From: Verrucomicrobiota bacterium
Lineage (GTDB): Bacteria > Verrucomicrobiota > Verrucomicrobiia > Opitutales > UBA2995
Assembly (NCBI GenBank): GCA_027622555.1
Contig: JAQBYJ010000007.1
Coordinates: forward strand, 1 to 64,000
DNA: 64,000 nt
Direction: 5' to 3'
A model generated the notes under the pieces. That model worked only from the letters and a program-made list of their open reading frames with translations. It made no database searches and was not told the origin of the DNA. Made by a program: the position numbers and the translations under genes. Below are positions 52,829 through 58,444 of this stretch, one piece after another. Each line of letters begins with the position of its first letter. Within the stretch, counting starts at the first letter, position 1.

Positions 52829-55177
52829 TCACTTGTAGAGGAGAAACGGTTTTCTGCGTTCTTTGAATTGCTCTGTTTCATCTTTCCACTGAAGGACTAT
52901 TGATCGCCAGGACTGCCCACCTTGAATCTGCTCAATAACGGATGGGTGTTTCAAAAGTCGGTTGAATGGTTCGATATCGAAATCGGGTGCATAGAGACGG
53001 TTCAACGTGTGGGCGATTGCTATCCCTACGTCGACAATGGGACAGTTTTCACGATCTGTCAGAATGATGTTCACGCCGCGGCAAGCTTGGTCTGCGAGCT
53101 TGCTGGCGGTAGGAGTGAATTGAATCGGAACAAATCGAACACCTGAAATGCTTTGTCGGTTCAGTTCCTCGGCCAGCTCAAGGTGGTCGATATAGGGTGC
53201 CCCAATAATTTCGAAAGGTGTATCGGTTCCGCGTCCGACCGAAAGCTTGGTAGTTTCCAGTAATCCAATTCCCGGGTACAGGATAGCTTGAGTTAGACTT
53301 CGCATATTGGGCGAGGGGTTAATCCAGGGAAGACCGGTTTCATCGAAGAGCATGTCACGTCGCCAGTCCTGGACAGGAATGACGGTTAGTTCAAGGTCCA
53401 GGTTTTTTTCGACTTTTATCATTTGTGCCAATTCGCCGACAGTCATTCCGTGACGAATGGGAATATCGTGGTAGGCGATAAAATCGAATTCTCCTCGGCG
53501 TAAGGGTCCCTCAACCGTTGTTCCATTAATGGGGTTCACTCGATCGAGGACGAAGAATTGTTTGTGGTTTTCGGCGGCCGCCTCCATGGCAAGTCCCATG
53601 GTGGAAATGTAGGTGTAGAACCGGCATCCGATGTCCTGGATGTCGAAGGCCAGGGCATCGAGATCTTTTAGGGCTTCTGGAGTCGGTGTTCGCGTGTCTC
53701 CATAGAGGCTCCGAATGGTTAAACCTGTTTTTTCGTCCAGGCTATCACCGACTTTTTCATCCAGCTTTCCACGGATCCCGTGCTCCGGACTGAAAAGAGC
53801 TACGAGCTCGACCTGGTCGCTTTCAAACAAAAGGTCTATGGTGGAAACGCCTCTTCGATTCCGTCCGGTGTGATTGGTTATCAGACCGAGCTTCAATCCA
53901 TTGAGCGACGCGAAGTTTTGTTTCTCAAGAACGTCGATGCCGTTTCGAACCTTGGTTAGACCTCTTGGGGTTGCCTCGAATTGGAAGCCCAGTGCTTCGG
54001 CGGAGAGGGTTCCCAATTCACGTCTGAGTTCCAGGACGTCACCCGTTCCATCGGGGTGGACTCGATTACTCATGAAAATGACAAAGGATTGTGAATAGGG
54101 GTCGATCCATAGGCTAGACCCGGTAAACCCTGTATGACCGAAACCGCCCAAAGGAAACAAGTTGCCTCTTTGTTTTGAATAACTCGTATCCATGTCCCAA
54201 CCAAGGCCGCGCCAATCATCGACGTTGGCCGGCGATTGAACGGAAGTCATCAGATCTACCGATTCAGATTGGAGGAGGCGCACGCCGTTCAGCTCGCCCT
54301 TGTTGAGCATCATTCTGGCAAATTTGGCCAAATCAGCCGCCGTTGTGAACATCCCGGCGTGACCCATAACTCCACCCGTTCTTCGGCAGATCGGGTTATT
54401 GGCAATTCCTTGAAGCATCTGTCCATCGACCCACTTGGTCGGTGCGATTCGATCCCTCAGTTTGGAGGATGGGAGATAACCCGTATCCATCATTCCTAAA
54501 GGTTGAAATATTTCTTCGCGTGTGAAGTCTTCAAGTTTGCGACCGCTCACTTGTTGGACGATCTCCCCCAGGAGAATGTAATTGATATCGCTATAAATAA
54601 ACGCGCTGCCGGGGTTGTGCTGAACTTTCTCAGCCTTGGCCAATGCAATGGCTGTGTCATAACCTTCCCAGTCTTGTTTCACTCCATCGACCTCCATGGT
54701 GAGACCGATTCCAGGACGTAAGCCGGAAGTATGGGTCATCAGGTGGCGAATGGTGATCGACTCTTTTCCACCATTCTTAAAATCATCCAGGTAGCGGTGA
54801 ACTGGCGCATCAAGCAGTATCTGTCCGCGTTCGATCAACAGCATGACCGCAGGTGTGGTGGCGACTACTTTGGTCAGAGATGCAGCATCATAAATGGTAT
54901 CAATTTTTGTTGGTATAACTTTCGGCTCCAACGACCTGTTGCCGTATGCTTTTGAATAAACCAGGCCCTTGCGTTCCAGCCAGAAAACGCCGCCAGGAGT
55001 TTTGTGGTCCGAAATCGCTTTCTCGATACTGGCATCGATCTCAGAGAGTTTTTCTGGATGGAAAACTTCGAGTTGTGGAGTCCTGCAGGCCGTAAGCAAC
55101 AATGAGATACTTAAAACCAGGAAAATGATTTTCCCAGAATTATTCCTGCTCTTGTCTGCTTCTATTTTCAACACCAC
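52829..55177 (-). CDS. Lipoprotein fusing a beta-lactamase-fold serine hydrolase to a NamZ (DUF1343) exo-muramidase
   Basis: A 782-residue precursor with a lipobox (LLLTAC, Cys31). Residues about 45-385 form a class C beta-lactamase-like serine hydrolase: SLTK (Ser100, Lys103), Y-S-D (195-197) and a GHTG motif. Residues about 410-782 are DUF1343, the family of NamZ, an exo-beta-N-acetylmuramidase (GH171) of Bacillus, with NHTG, SPEHGIRG and NPSPNMRS. In Bacillus, namZ and a beta-lactamase-family amidase (AmiE) are separate neighbouring genes that act on muropeptides; here they are one protein. Membrane anchoring places it at the cell envelope. LD-carboxypeptidase lies 0.9 kb away. Confidence 0.85.
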   Translation of the reverse strand: MVLKIEADKSRNNSGKIIFLVLSISLLLTACRTPQLEVFHPEKLSEIDASIEKAISDHKTPGGVFWLERKGLVYSKAYGNRSLEPKVIPTKIDTIYDAASLTKVVATTPAVMLLIERGQILLDAPVHRYLDDFKNGGKESITIRHLMTHTSGLRPGIGLTMEVDGVKQDWEGYDTAIALAKAEKVQHNPGSAFIYSDINYILLGEIVQQVSGRKLEDFTREEIFQPLGMMDTGYLPSSKLRDRIAPTKWVDGQMLQGIANNPICRRTGGVMGHAGMFTTAADLAKFARMMLNKGELNGVRLLQSESVDLMTSVQSPANVDDWRGLGWDMDTSYSKQRGNLFPLGGFGHTGFTGSSLWIDPYSQSFVIFMSNRVHPDGTGDVLELRRELGTLSAEALGFQFEATPRGLTKVRNGIDVLEKQNFASLNGLKLGLITNHTGRNRRGVSTIDLLFESDQVELVALFSPEHGIRGKLDEKVGDSLDEKTGLTIRSLYGDTRTPTPEALKDLDALAFDIQDIGCRFYTYISTMGLAMEAAAENHKQFFVLDRVNPINGTTVEGPLRRGEFDFIAYHDIPIRHGMTVGELAQMIKVEKNLDLELTVIPVQDWRRDMLFDETGLPWINPSPNMRSLTQAILYPGIGLLETTKLSVGRGTDTPFEIIGAPYIDHLELAEELNRQSISGVRFVPIQFTPTASKLADQACRGVNIILTDRENCPIVDVGIAIAHTLNRLYAPDFDIEPFNRLLKHPSVIEQIQGGQSWRSIVLQWKDETEQFKERRKPFLLYK

Positions 55178-56055: not shown

Positions 56056-57006
56056 ATGGAAAAACCTCCTGCATTGCGGCCGGGTGATACAATTCGACTG
56101 ATCGCCCCGGCGAGCCCTCCTAATGATCGCGCCTCATTGGAGTTGGCGATTTCTGCTTTGGAGAAGCTTGGGTACAAATTGAAATATTCGGATGCTATAT
56201 TTGGACACCAAGGGTACCTTGCGGGATCAGATGAAGCGCGTGCGCGGGATTTCGAGGATGCATTTGTAGATAAAGCATCTGACGCAGTTCTTTGTGTTCG
56301 GGGCGGCTATGGATCCACCAGAATATTGGATCTTATTGACTGGGATTTGATTGAACGACCCAAGATATTTATGGGTTTTAGTGACATTACTGCTTTAAAT
56401 TGTGCTTTATGGAAAAAATGTGGATTTCGGAGTTTTTCGGGTCCCGTGTTAACTTCGGACTTAACTGAGAATATACCGGATTCAGCGTCGTGGGACCATG
56501 CCCTTTCGCTCATTACTGGAGAAAGAAAAAGCGGTAATCTGATTTGTGAACCCTTCAATTTGAGTCATCCCACCGCGATCGTTCCAGGTACCAGTCATGG
56601 TCGTTTGATAGGCGGTAATCTTTCCCTGCTTTGTTCTCTGCTTGGTACGGCTTGGTTTCCCAATCTAAAAAACTCCATTCTGTTTTTGGAGGATGTTGGC
56701 GAGTCGCCTTACAGGATTGATCGTTACCTAACTCAGCTCAGGAATGGAGGATTCCTTGAGCAAGTCGCTGGTATCGTGCTCGGAGATTTTCGTTACTCGG
56801 ATGCGCAGCGCAAAAATGATAAGCAACAGGGCCTCCAAACCATGGAAGAAGTATTCCAGGATCGTCTAGCGGACCTGGGTGTACCGGTGTTGTCGAATGT
56901 CCCGTTCGGCCACATCAAGCCAAAGATCACCATCCCTTTCGGCACCCTGGTAATTCTTGATTGTGAAAAACGGAATATCCTGCTTCAGGAAAGCTCAGTG
57001 GAATAA
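56056..57006 (+). CDS. ldcA: Muramoyltetrapeptide (LD-) carboxypeptidase, family S66
   Basis: A 316-residue cytoplasmic serine peptidase that removes the terminal D-alanine from muropeptide tetrapeptides during peptidoglycan recycling. The nucleophile is Ser109 in GFSDITAL, with the acid in FLEDVGESPYRIDRYL and the histidine in FGHIKPKITIPFG. LIAPASPP at the start and VRGGYGS are also typical. It stands close to the NamZ fusion lipoprotein on the opposite strand, suggesting a muropeptide theme. Confidence 0.93.
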   Translation: MEKPPALRPGDTIRLIAPASPPNDRASLELAISALEKLGYKLKYSDAIFGHQGYLAGSDEARARDFEDAFVDKASDAVLCVRGGYGSTRILDLIDWDLIERPKIFMGFSDITALNCALWKKCGFRSFSGPVLTSDLTENIPDSASWDHALSLITGERKSGNLICEPFNLSHPTAIVPGTSHGRLIGGNLSLLCSLLGTAWFPNLKNSILFLEDVGESPYRIDRYLTQLRNGGFLEQVAGIVLGDFRYSDAQRKNDKQQGLQTMEEVFQDRLADLGVPVLSNVPFGHIKPKITIPFGTLVILDCEKRNILLQESSVE

Positions 57007-57112: not shown

Positions 57113-58444
57113 ATGAAAACGTTGCTTTTAAAAATAGTTCTTTGTCTTTGTTTCTGTGTCGTTGCTTCACAGGCAAAGTCGCCACCGAATATCATCCTCA
57201 TACTGACGGATGACCAGGGATGGAATAACACCCAGGTAAGGATGATTGCCGACCGGGAGGATACAAAGTCCGACTTTTACCAAACGCCCAATATGCAACG
57301 ATTGGCTGACGCCGGGATGACCTTTTCACAGGCGTATGCACCGCATCCCGTTTGTTCACCCTCACGGCATGCCATTCAGTTTGGTATGTCTCCGGCCAAA
57401 CTTAAAAAGACGACCAATCAAGGGGCGAACTATCCGGAGTTCATTGAATCTGAGTCGATACCCCAGGTTCTCAAAGCTGCCCATCCGGAATACAAAGCCG
57501 CTCATTTTGGAAAGTGGCACATGTACGAACATCCAGCTGAGCGCGGCTACGACGCTTCCGATGGAAGAACTAACAACGCGACAGGTCGCCAATTGACCAC
57601 CGACCAAACAAAGTTCTGGCCGCATGATGATCCGAAACGTTCGATCTCTATCACGGATGAGTCTGTTCAATTTATTAGGCACCAGGCGTCAGCGGGGAAT
57701 CCTTTCTATCTTCAGATTTCTCATTATTTTATTCATCTGTCAGCGGAAGCGTTACCAGTAACTTTGGAAAAGCACAAAGGACGCGAACCAGGAAAAGTTC
57801 ATACAGCCTATTGGTATGCGGCCATGCTGGAGGACCTGGATCAAGCGGTGGGCCGAATTATTGATACAGTTGAAGAAATGGGTTTGATGGAAACAACCTA
57901 CATTATTTTCACATCCGATAACGGCGGGACGGCGAGGCAATTCCCCGACTTCAACAAACCCTTGCGAGGAGGGAAGGGGTCTTACTACGAAGGAGGCATT
58001 CGTGTTCCGTTTTTTGCTGTTGGGCCAGGCATTGAAGCTGGGACCTATTCGACCGTGCCGATTATTGGGTACGACTTACTTCCTACCTTCGCAGAGTTAG
58101 CTGGAATTACGGATCCACTCCCACCCGAAGTTGAAGGAGGTTCCTTCCTTTCGGTTTTGAAGAATGAAGGCAGGGGAACTGTAAAACGTGAGCGCGATGG
58201 AATCTACTTCAGCAGGCAAATCGATGCGGTACTCATACAGGGAGCTAATAAACTGATTCTAACTCATCGGACGGGAGAACTTCAGCTCTATAACCTGGCA
58301 GAAGACATTTCCGAAATAAACGATTTGTCCGAATCGCAACCGGATATTAAAGAGAAGCTTTTCGCAAAGTTGAAAGACTGGATGGATGCCAATGATGTCC
58401 TGACACCTTCGCCGCATGCACCTCGAGCTCAGAGGCGACCATAA
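57113..58444 (+). CDS. Exported Cys-type sulfatase
   Basis: A 443-residue exported type I sulfatase. A signal peptide (about 1-21) is followed by ILTDDQGWNN, whose aspartates bind calcium, and the active-site CSPSR (81-85), the substrate of formylglycine-generating enzyme. HFGKWHMYE and TSDNGG are further family motifs. It likely removes sulfate from a marine or host polysaccharide, in keeping with the other exported proteins here. The substrate is not predictable. No maturation enzyme is in the window. Confidence 0.93.
   Translation: MKTLLLKIVLCLCFCVVASQAKSPPNIILILTDDQGWNNTQVRMIADREDTKSDFYQTPNMQRLADAGMTFSQAYAPHPVCSPSRHAIQFGMSPAKLKKTTNQGANYPEFIESESIPQVLKAAHPEYKAAHFGKWHMYEHPAERGYDASDGRTNNATGRQLTTDQTKFWPHDDPKRSISITDESVQFIRHQASAGNPFYLQISHYFIHLSAEALPVTLEKHKGREPGKVHTAYWYAAMLEDLDQAVGRIIDTVEEMGLMETTYIIFTSDNGGTARQFPDFNKPLRGGKGSYYEGGIRVPFFAVGPGIEAGTYSTVPIIGYDLLPTFAELAGITDPLPPEVEGGSFLSVLKNEGRGTVKRERDGIYFSRQIDAVLIQGANKLILTHRTGELQLYNLAEDISEINDLSESQPDIKEKLFAKLKDWMDANDVLTPSPHAPRAQRRP

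Follow-up and report, generated by a model that had tools for sequence, protein, structure and literature searches.

We suggest that the gene studied here encodes an exported, lipid-anchored hydrolase that processes muropeptides in two steps, the first by an S12 domain acting as an AmiE-type amidase and the second by NamZ; we give this reading a probability of roughly 60%. The gene lies in a 64,000-nucleotide stretch of a Verrucomicrobiota genome, called the window below. Both folds are present in one chain with conserved active-site residues, and elsewhere the same fusion is repeatedly linked to genes for the uptake and breakdown of MurNAc. In the mechanism that we propose, the S12 domain, as an AmiE-type N-acetylmuramoyl-L-alanine amidase, would free the stem peptide from terminal MurNAc, and the tethered NamZ domain would then take the bare MurNAc off the non-reducing end. 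It is likely that the S12-NamZ pair acts on muropeptides, and a MurNAc-L-Ala amidase step is probably the best reading of the first reaction. We infer which bond the amidase would cut, which step comes first, that the protein is anchored and that tethering brings any benefit.

Anatomy of the fused protein

The protein is one chain in which an S12 domain is followed by a linker and a complete NamZ module (Table 1), and the one-chain fusion described in the sequence-only reading is confirmed. All three Pfam scores are far over their respective cut-offs. The AlphaFold2 model has a mean pLDDT of 90.8 and a pTM of 0.77, and only the linker falls below a pLDDT of 50, the N-terminus aside. In the alignment of 50 fusions used for this model and for residue invariance (the window protein and 49 of the 80 loci described below), S100, K103, Y195, D197, H348, G350, E465 and H466 are invariant (50/50). 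The second half is recognized as NamZ by its NamZ_N and NamZ_C profile scores, by the fold of solved relatives and by the conserved glutamate of P-E-H-G. A structure search pairs it with solved relatives, the B. fragilis DUF1343 protein 4k05 (Z 49.9 over 372 residues) and 4jja (Z 40.0 over 336 residues). We take the NamZ exo-beta-N-acetylmuramidases to be family GH171, and E465 is presumably the catalytic acidic residue.

A single hydrophobic stretch is found at the N-terminus. It spans residues 13-31 and closes with L-T-A-C at Cys31, which we take to be a lipobox; therefore a lipoprotein signal is likely, and the lipid anchor claimed earlier is borne out as a good prediction for this protein. 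A plain lipobox pattern occurs in the first 70 residues of only 20 of 87 fusions, a count for which both the pattern and the start sites are crude. Thus, the lipid anchor is not general across the fusion family.

Table 1. Locations of the fused gene, its parts, the larger fusions and other loci referred to in the text (plain positions are those of the window; others are preceded by the locus)
Feature	Location	Strand	Details
Whole S12-NamZ gene	52829..55177	-	GTG start, 782 aa, single unbroken ORF
Predicted lipoprotein signal	55085..55177	-	Residues 1-31; L28-T-A-C31 taken as lipobox
S12 serine beta-lactamase-fold domain	54035..55033	-	Residues 49-381; Pfam PF00144, 217.5 bits
S12 active-site residues			S100-x-x-K103, Y195-S-D197, H348-T-G350
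Flexible linker	53960..53977	-	Residues 401-406; AlphaFold2 pLDDT <50
NamZ N-terminal domain	53294..53887	-	Residues 431-628; NamZ_N PF07075, 269.7 bits; E465-H466-G467 invariant
NamZ C-terminal domain	52835..53284	-	Residues 632-781; NamZ_C PF20732, 157.4 bits
LdcA-type S66 peptidase gene	56056-57006	+
Sulfatase gene	57113-58444	+
508-aa SIS/GKRP-like protein	L131:1484-3010		Own genome, contig C62
Symporter-S12-NamZ	L165:748-5013	+
Symporter-S12-NamZ	L166:1184-5305	+
Symporter-S12-NamZ	L167:881-5080	+
Symporter-S12-NamZ	L168:1487-5854	-
NagZ-type GH3-S12-NamZ	L169:676-4722	+	1349 aa, one genome, single frame
Deacetylase, DUF4015, S12-NamZ	L115:3844-8217
Deacetylase, DUF4015, S12-NamZ	L177:606-5286
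Deacetylase, DUF4015, S12-NamZ	L178:2809-7247
Deacetylase, DUF4015, S12-NamZ	L111:3891-8235
AnmK, S12 hydrolase, DUF1343/NamZ, NagZ	L116:3455-11100		Haladaptatus salinisoli plasmid

Distribution of the fusion

The S12-NamZ architecture is widespread, and the window protein is an ordinary member of a broad family. The novelty first ascribed to the fusion does not hold. Table 3 of a serine protease survey of 2008 lists 'DDPept-DUF1343' once (YP_439122.1), with the note 'Cell wall biosynthesis'; it belongs to the five multi-domain proteins given there for a set of 254 (PMC2605481). The two domains and their order are identical to those in the window, whereas the table entry gives neither an activity nor a wider distribution (PMC2605481). 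Our literature search returned no paper that gives an S12-NamZ fusion an activity; the founding NamZ papers (Mueller 2021, Borisova 2022) may mention one. It also returned no paper that combines Acidobacteria, MurNAc, peptidoglycan and MurQ.

In a contig scan of named genomes, the best 80 of 577 relatives were analysed, and all 80 are single-frame S12-NamZ fusions (74 by pattern, five further single ORFs, and L044 by uninterrupted translation). Since these loci are the top-scoring of the 577, fusions are over-represented among them. These best 80 of 577 come mostly from Verrucomicrobiota, Acidobacteriota and Planctomycetota, and the others from Nitrospirota, Thermodesulfobacteriota, Pseudomonadota and one MAG titled Bacillota. 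Closer to the window, the full single-frame fusion is present in 7 of 53 related genomes (G000, G001, G002, G005, G019, G024 and G042), the first four being among the six genomes of the genus that were searched, its own included. The closest full-length relatives belong to this genus and are 74-77% identical. The S12 domain of locus L036 is identical to that of G042, a genome of the window's order. In a sample of the phylum, NamZ_N was found in 113 of 193 genomes and lies in a frame of at least 740 aa in 7 of 193, a fusion count made by frame length only that leaves three more frames of 659-692 aa uncounted. An artefact of assembly or gene joining was considered and rejected, as the same fusion recurs in 4/6 genomes of the genus and in 80/80 of the best matches (of 577).

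The fused state is not obligatory, and relatives keep single halves. G003, G006, G007 and a more distant genome, G047, keep the S12 half alone; G004, a fragmented assembly, keeps only the NamZ half, which has a lipobox of its own. In the S12 tree four S12 halves (L012-L015) branch within the fusion clade, as a NamZ half (L011) does in the NamZ tree; therefore a split or loss after fusion is likelier than a fresh arrival. L012, L013 and L014 (S12 half) and L011 (NamZ half) end or begin at the domain border. In two fusions of another family, L008 and L009, NamZ is followed by a shared C-terminal tail some 20 residues long.

Motifs and profiles of the S12 domain

The motifs SxxK, Y-[ST]-D and H-x-G are each present in 92 of 92 fusion rows; the third motif reads H-T-G in 83 of them, and GHAG is found in 88. 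The window domain has Y-S-D, H-A-G and H-T-G. The same motifs are found in E. coli YfeW (PBP4B) and in a Deinococcus S12 protein flanked by AnmK and NagZ, and also in NagZ-fused S12 domains, with variants in the third position set. An E. faecalis plasmid and an L. monocytogenes record each encode S12 proteins with similar motifs and have no peptidoglycan genes adjoining them, which shows that this set of motifs also occurs outside peptidoglycan loci. Among curated families the closest is PBP4B with 143.2 bits, followed by the lipase LipE with 87.6 bits. The PBP4B score lies far below the 385-bit cut-off of the equivalog NF002968, AmpH gives 83.0 bits, and the class C beta-lactamase model NF033085 gives 47.6 bits against a cut-off of 415. 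All 50 of the fusions scanned are matched by each of the models PBP4B, AcmB and AmpH, whose best E-values are 2.1e-63, 3e-31 and 2.6e-26, respectively.

These profiles would also suit a D,D-carboxypeptidase or D-Ala-specific peptidase of the PBP4B/AmpH kind, which would trim the stem peptide while NamZ separately removes MurNAc from naked ends. The S12 class includes D-Ala carboxypeptidases, and the PBP4B and AmpH models match every fusion scanned. However, AmpH itself is without the signature, having YSN, GSGG and GGGG in these positions; AmpC differs too. NamZ as an exo-muramidase probably needs unsubstituted MurNAc, and after trimming of this kind MurNAc would stay substituted, a poor fit to a tethered exo-muramidase. 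In addition, the S12 member of the B. subtilis operon is reported to be a MurNAc-L-Ala amidase (PMC5061867). We regard the D-Ala peptidase as unlikely and favor the amidase.

Neighbouring genes and larger fusions

We surveyed 530 ORFs around the 80 loci (the best 80 of 577 relatives), with a median flank of 10.3 kb per locus. Within this set of the best 80 of 577, a NagZ-type GH3 is near 10 fusions, MurQ near seven, a BadF/NagK-type, MurK-like kinase near five, and a sodium:solute symporter near 16, of which 13 belong to one subfamily. Identity to the symporter that is itself fused in L165-L168 is 38-58% for these 13 and only 20-26% for the remaining three (L053, L080 and L091). In three loci such genes lie with the fusion on one strand: the order is kinase-MurQ-symporter-NagZ-fusion in the acidobacterial L060, symporter-MurQ-fusion-NagZ in L099, and symporter-fusion-MurQ-kinase in L113 of Singulisphaera acidiphila. 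No symporter is seen in the flanks of 64 or more of these loci (best 80 of 577; median flank 10.3 kb), and most loci have none of these salvage partners there.

The linkage extends to the proteins themselves. Five frames of about 1400 aa were examined (L165-L169). Four of the four symporter-type frames, L165-L168, from four genomes, are symporter(SSF)-S12-NamZ proteins of 1374-1456 aa, with 12-13 hydrophobic stretches in the front part. They cluster with acidobacterial fusions in the S12 trees, and a kinase relative lies upstream in L165. This seems to be a transporter that bears its own upstream hydrolases. The fifth, L169, places a NagZ-type GH3 before S12 and NamZ; L172 and L173 are GH3-S12 proteins. 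The L169 S12 domain groups with NagZ-S12 proteins (97/93) and its NamZ domain with L176 (100/100), and therefore L169 looks independently joined. An AU test of a placement of its S12 domain inside the fusion clade gave p 0.0465, which is borderline, for a group named after the tree was seen; the NamZ tree sets L169 apart more firmly. The short flanks around L165-L169 yielded no MurQ. The link of S12-NamZ to MurNAc release is strengthened by the neighbours and by these larger fusions.

There is a second setting among the best 80 of 577, in which a polysaccharide deacetylase (4/80) accompanies a DUF4015 putative glycosidase (5/80). It is found in Pseudomonas, Nitrospirota and Thermodesulfobacteriota loci and in three Burkholderiales plasmid records; four loci have the trio of deacetylase, DUF4015 and S12-NamZ (Table 1). 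Such partners, together with a window genome that is without salvage enzymes, would be expected if the fusion served another wall or polysaccharide process and the salvage neighbours were a local adoption. We find this improbable, as both catalytic halves are typical of peptidoglycan exo-enzymes, and in other lineages they are joined in one chain with NagZ or with a symporter resembling MurT. Beyond bacteria, genes for AnmK, an S12 hydrolase, DUF1343/NamZ and NagZ lie together on a plasmid of Haladaptatus salinisoli (L116). Its S12 protein has Y-S-C, and the haloarchaeal set presumably serves feeding on bacterial walls.

Relation of the S12 domain to esterases

In the S12 tree the 33 rows of recycling-linked domains separate from 8 rows that comprise esterases, AmpC, AmpH and Pab87. 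The support for this split, 93/93, is not decisive, long branches are present, and B. subtilis AmiE is not among the rows. The esterases EstU1 (4ivi) and 7pp3 form a separate clade with three of the genome's own S12 paralogues (99/95), and all of them have W-G-G as third motif, the mark of family VIII carboxylesterases. In its place the window has H-T-G, and H-x-G is present in 92 of 92 fusions. The motifs and, with moderate support (93/93), the tree put the window domain nearer to S12 proteins linked with recycling than to the esterases of family VIII.

Also improbable is a reading of the S12 domain as an esterase or acyltransferase, which would, for instance, strip an O-acetyl or other ester from MurNAc and thereby open the way for NamZ. 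EstU1 4ivi, a carboxylesterase, is its top phmmer match (E 8.3e-31), and a macrolactin acyltransferase, EstG and EstU1 are its highest structural matches (6kjh Z 41.5, EstG 40.2, EstU1 40.1); against this stand the third motif and the separate clade. Among the solved structures listed there was no AmiE or PBP4B entry to compete, and families outside this listing may match as well. Motifs, neighbours and larger fusions give indirect support to the amidase named in the sequence-only reading, with a D-Ala peptidase as the less likely alternative.

Salvage partners in the host genome

The host genome is 95.8% complete, and in it we found no match to GH3/NagZ, no match to AnmK and no MurQ over the cut-off. 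Therefore, the Bacillus scheme cannot simply be transferred. The best MurQ match is a 508-aa SIS/GKRP-domain protein (74.3 bits against a cut-off of 302), which shares 29% identity with MurQ of E. coli across 197 columns. In the genus, GH3 is found in one of six genomes and MurQ over the cut-off in none of the six; the SIS relative recurs. This conserved gene lies between upp and a metA-like gene, as we read the neighbouring sequences. The host also has two GH20 matches, and a GH20 enzyme is a candidate for removing alternate GlcNAc in this lineage. Two further, separate NamZ genes of the genome fall outside the fusion clade of the NamZ tree.

An LdcA-type S66 peptidase gene was earlier seen near the fusion, and this location is correct. 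It lies on the opposite strand with an EVE-domain gene in between, and the neighbourhood is kept in the congener G001. A functional link is a different matter, and we rejected LdcA as a pathway partner: the window LdcA has no homologue among the 530 neighbour ORFs and is near 0 of the 80 fusions (best 80 of 577). A sulfatase gene adjoins LdcA in the window. The congener G001 has a counterpart of this sulfatase and a second one beside the fusion.

Implications

What is known of peptidoglycan salvage comes mostly from work on Proteobacteria, Bacilli and Tannerella. We put forward, tentatively and at somewhat less than even odds, a broader reading in which this family repeatedly wires consecutive steps of muropeptide harvest into one chain. 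S12-NamZ would be the common form, NagZ-S12-NamZ an independent one, and the acidobacterial MurT-like symporter-S12-NamZ an importer with a tail of two enzymes that make its substrate. The two-domain form in Opitutae, without NagZ, AnmK or canonical MurQ, would then feed a MurNAc route outside the known ones, for which the conserved 508-aa GKRP/MurQ-like SIS protein is a candidate. If this is true, many Acidobacteriota, Planctomycetota and Verrucomicrobiota of soil and water take MurNAc by an external, exo-acting route of fused enzymes, and the identity of a MurNAc importer follows from what it is fused to. The window itself is of smaller interest, being one member of a broad fusion family. 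More deserving of follow-up are the fusions with a symporter or with NagZ, and the absence of partners in the window lineage. The fusion would be a ready two-activity enzyme for assay, and Singulisphaera acidiphila offers a cultured host with a finished genome.

Comparison with known systems

In E. coli, yfeW follows murQ-murP. Its product YfeW/PBP4B, described as a low-affinity penicillin-binding protein, resembles the window S12 domain in curated family and motifs, whereas it is without a NamZ domain and is 29% identical in the alignment. The B. subtilis murQRP-amiE-nagZ-namZ(ybbC) operon (PMC5061867) is alike in directing an S12 amidase and NamZ at the same fragments, and NagZ and MurQ also lie beside fusions elsewhere. 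There, amiE and namZ are separate genes, whereas the window host, without NagZ or MurQ over the cut-off, has an S12 and a NamZ domain in one chain. In T. forsythia, MurNAc is imported by MurT, a sodium symporter encoded by the murTKQ operon (PMC5790795), and NamZ (ybbC) lies upstream of this operon (PMC5388701, PMC5790795). NamZ thus adjoins an importer of the sodium-symporter type, a kinase and an etherase, as it does near some fusions, although the accounts of T. forsythia NamZ in these two papers report no fusion to S12 or to an importer. Glyco_hydro_3-DDPept (NagZ-S12) fusions in Bacteroides and Salinibacter appear in the same 2008 table (PMC2605481), and in these an S12 domain of the same broad group is likewise joined to a peptidoglycan exo-enzyme. 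Their partner is NagZ; L169, from one genome, has NagZ, S12 and NamZ in one chain.
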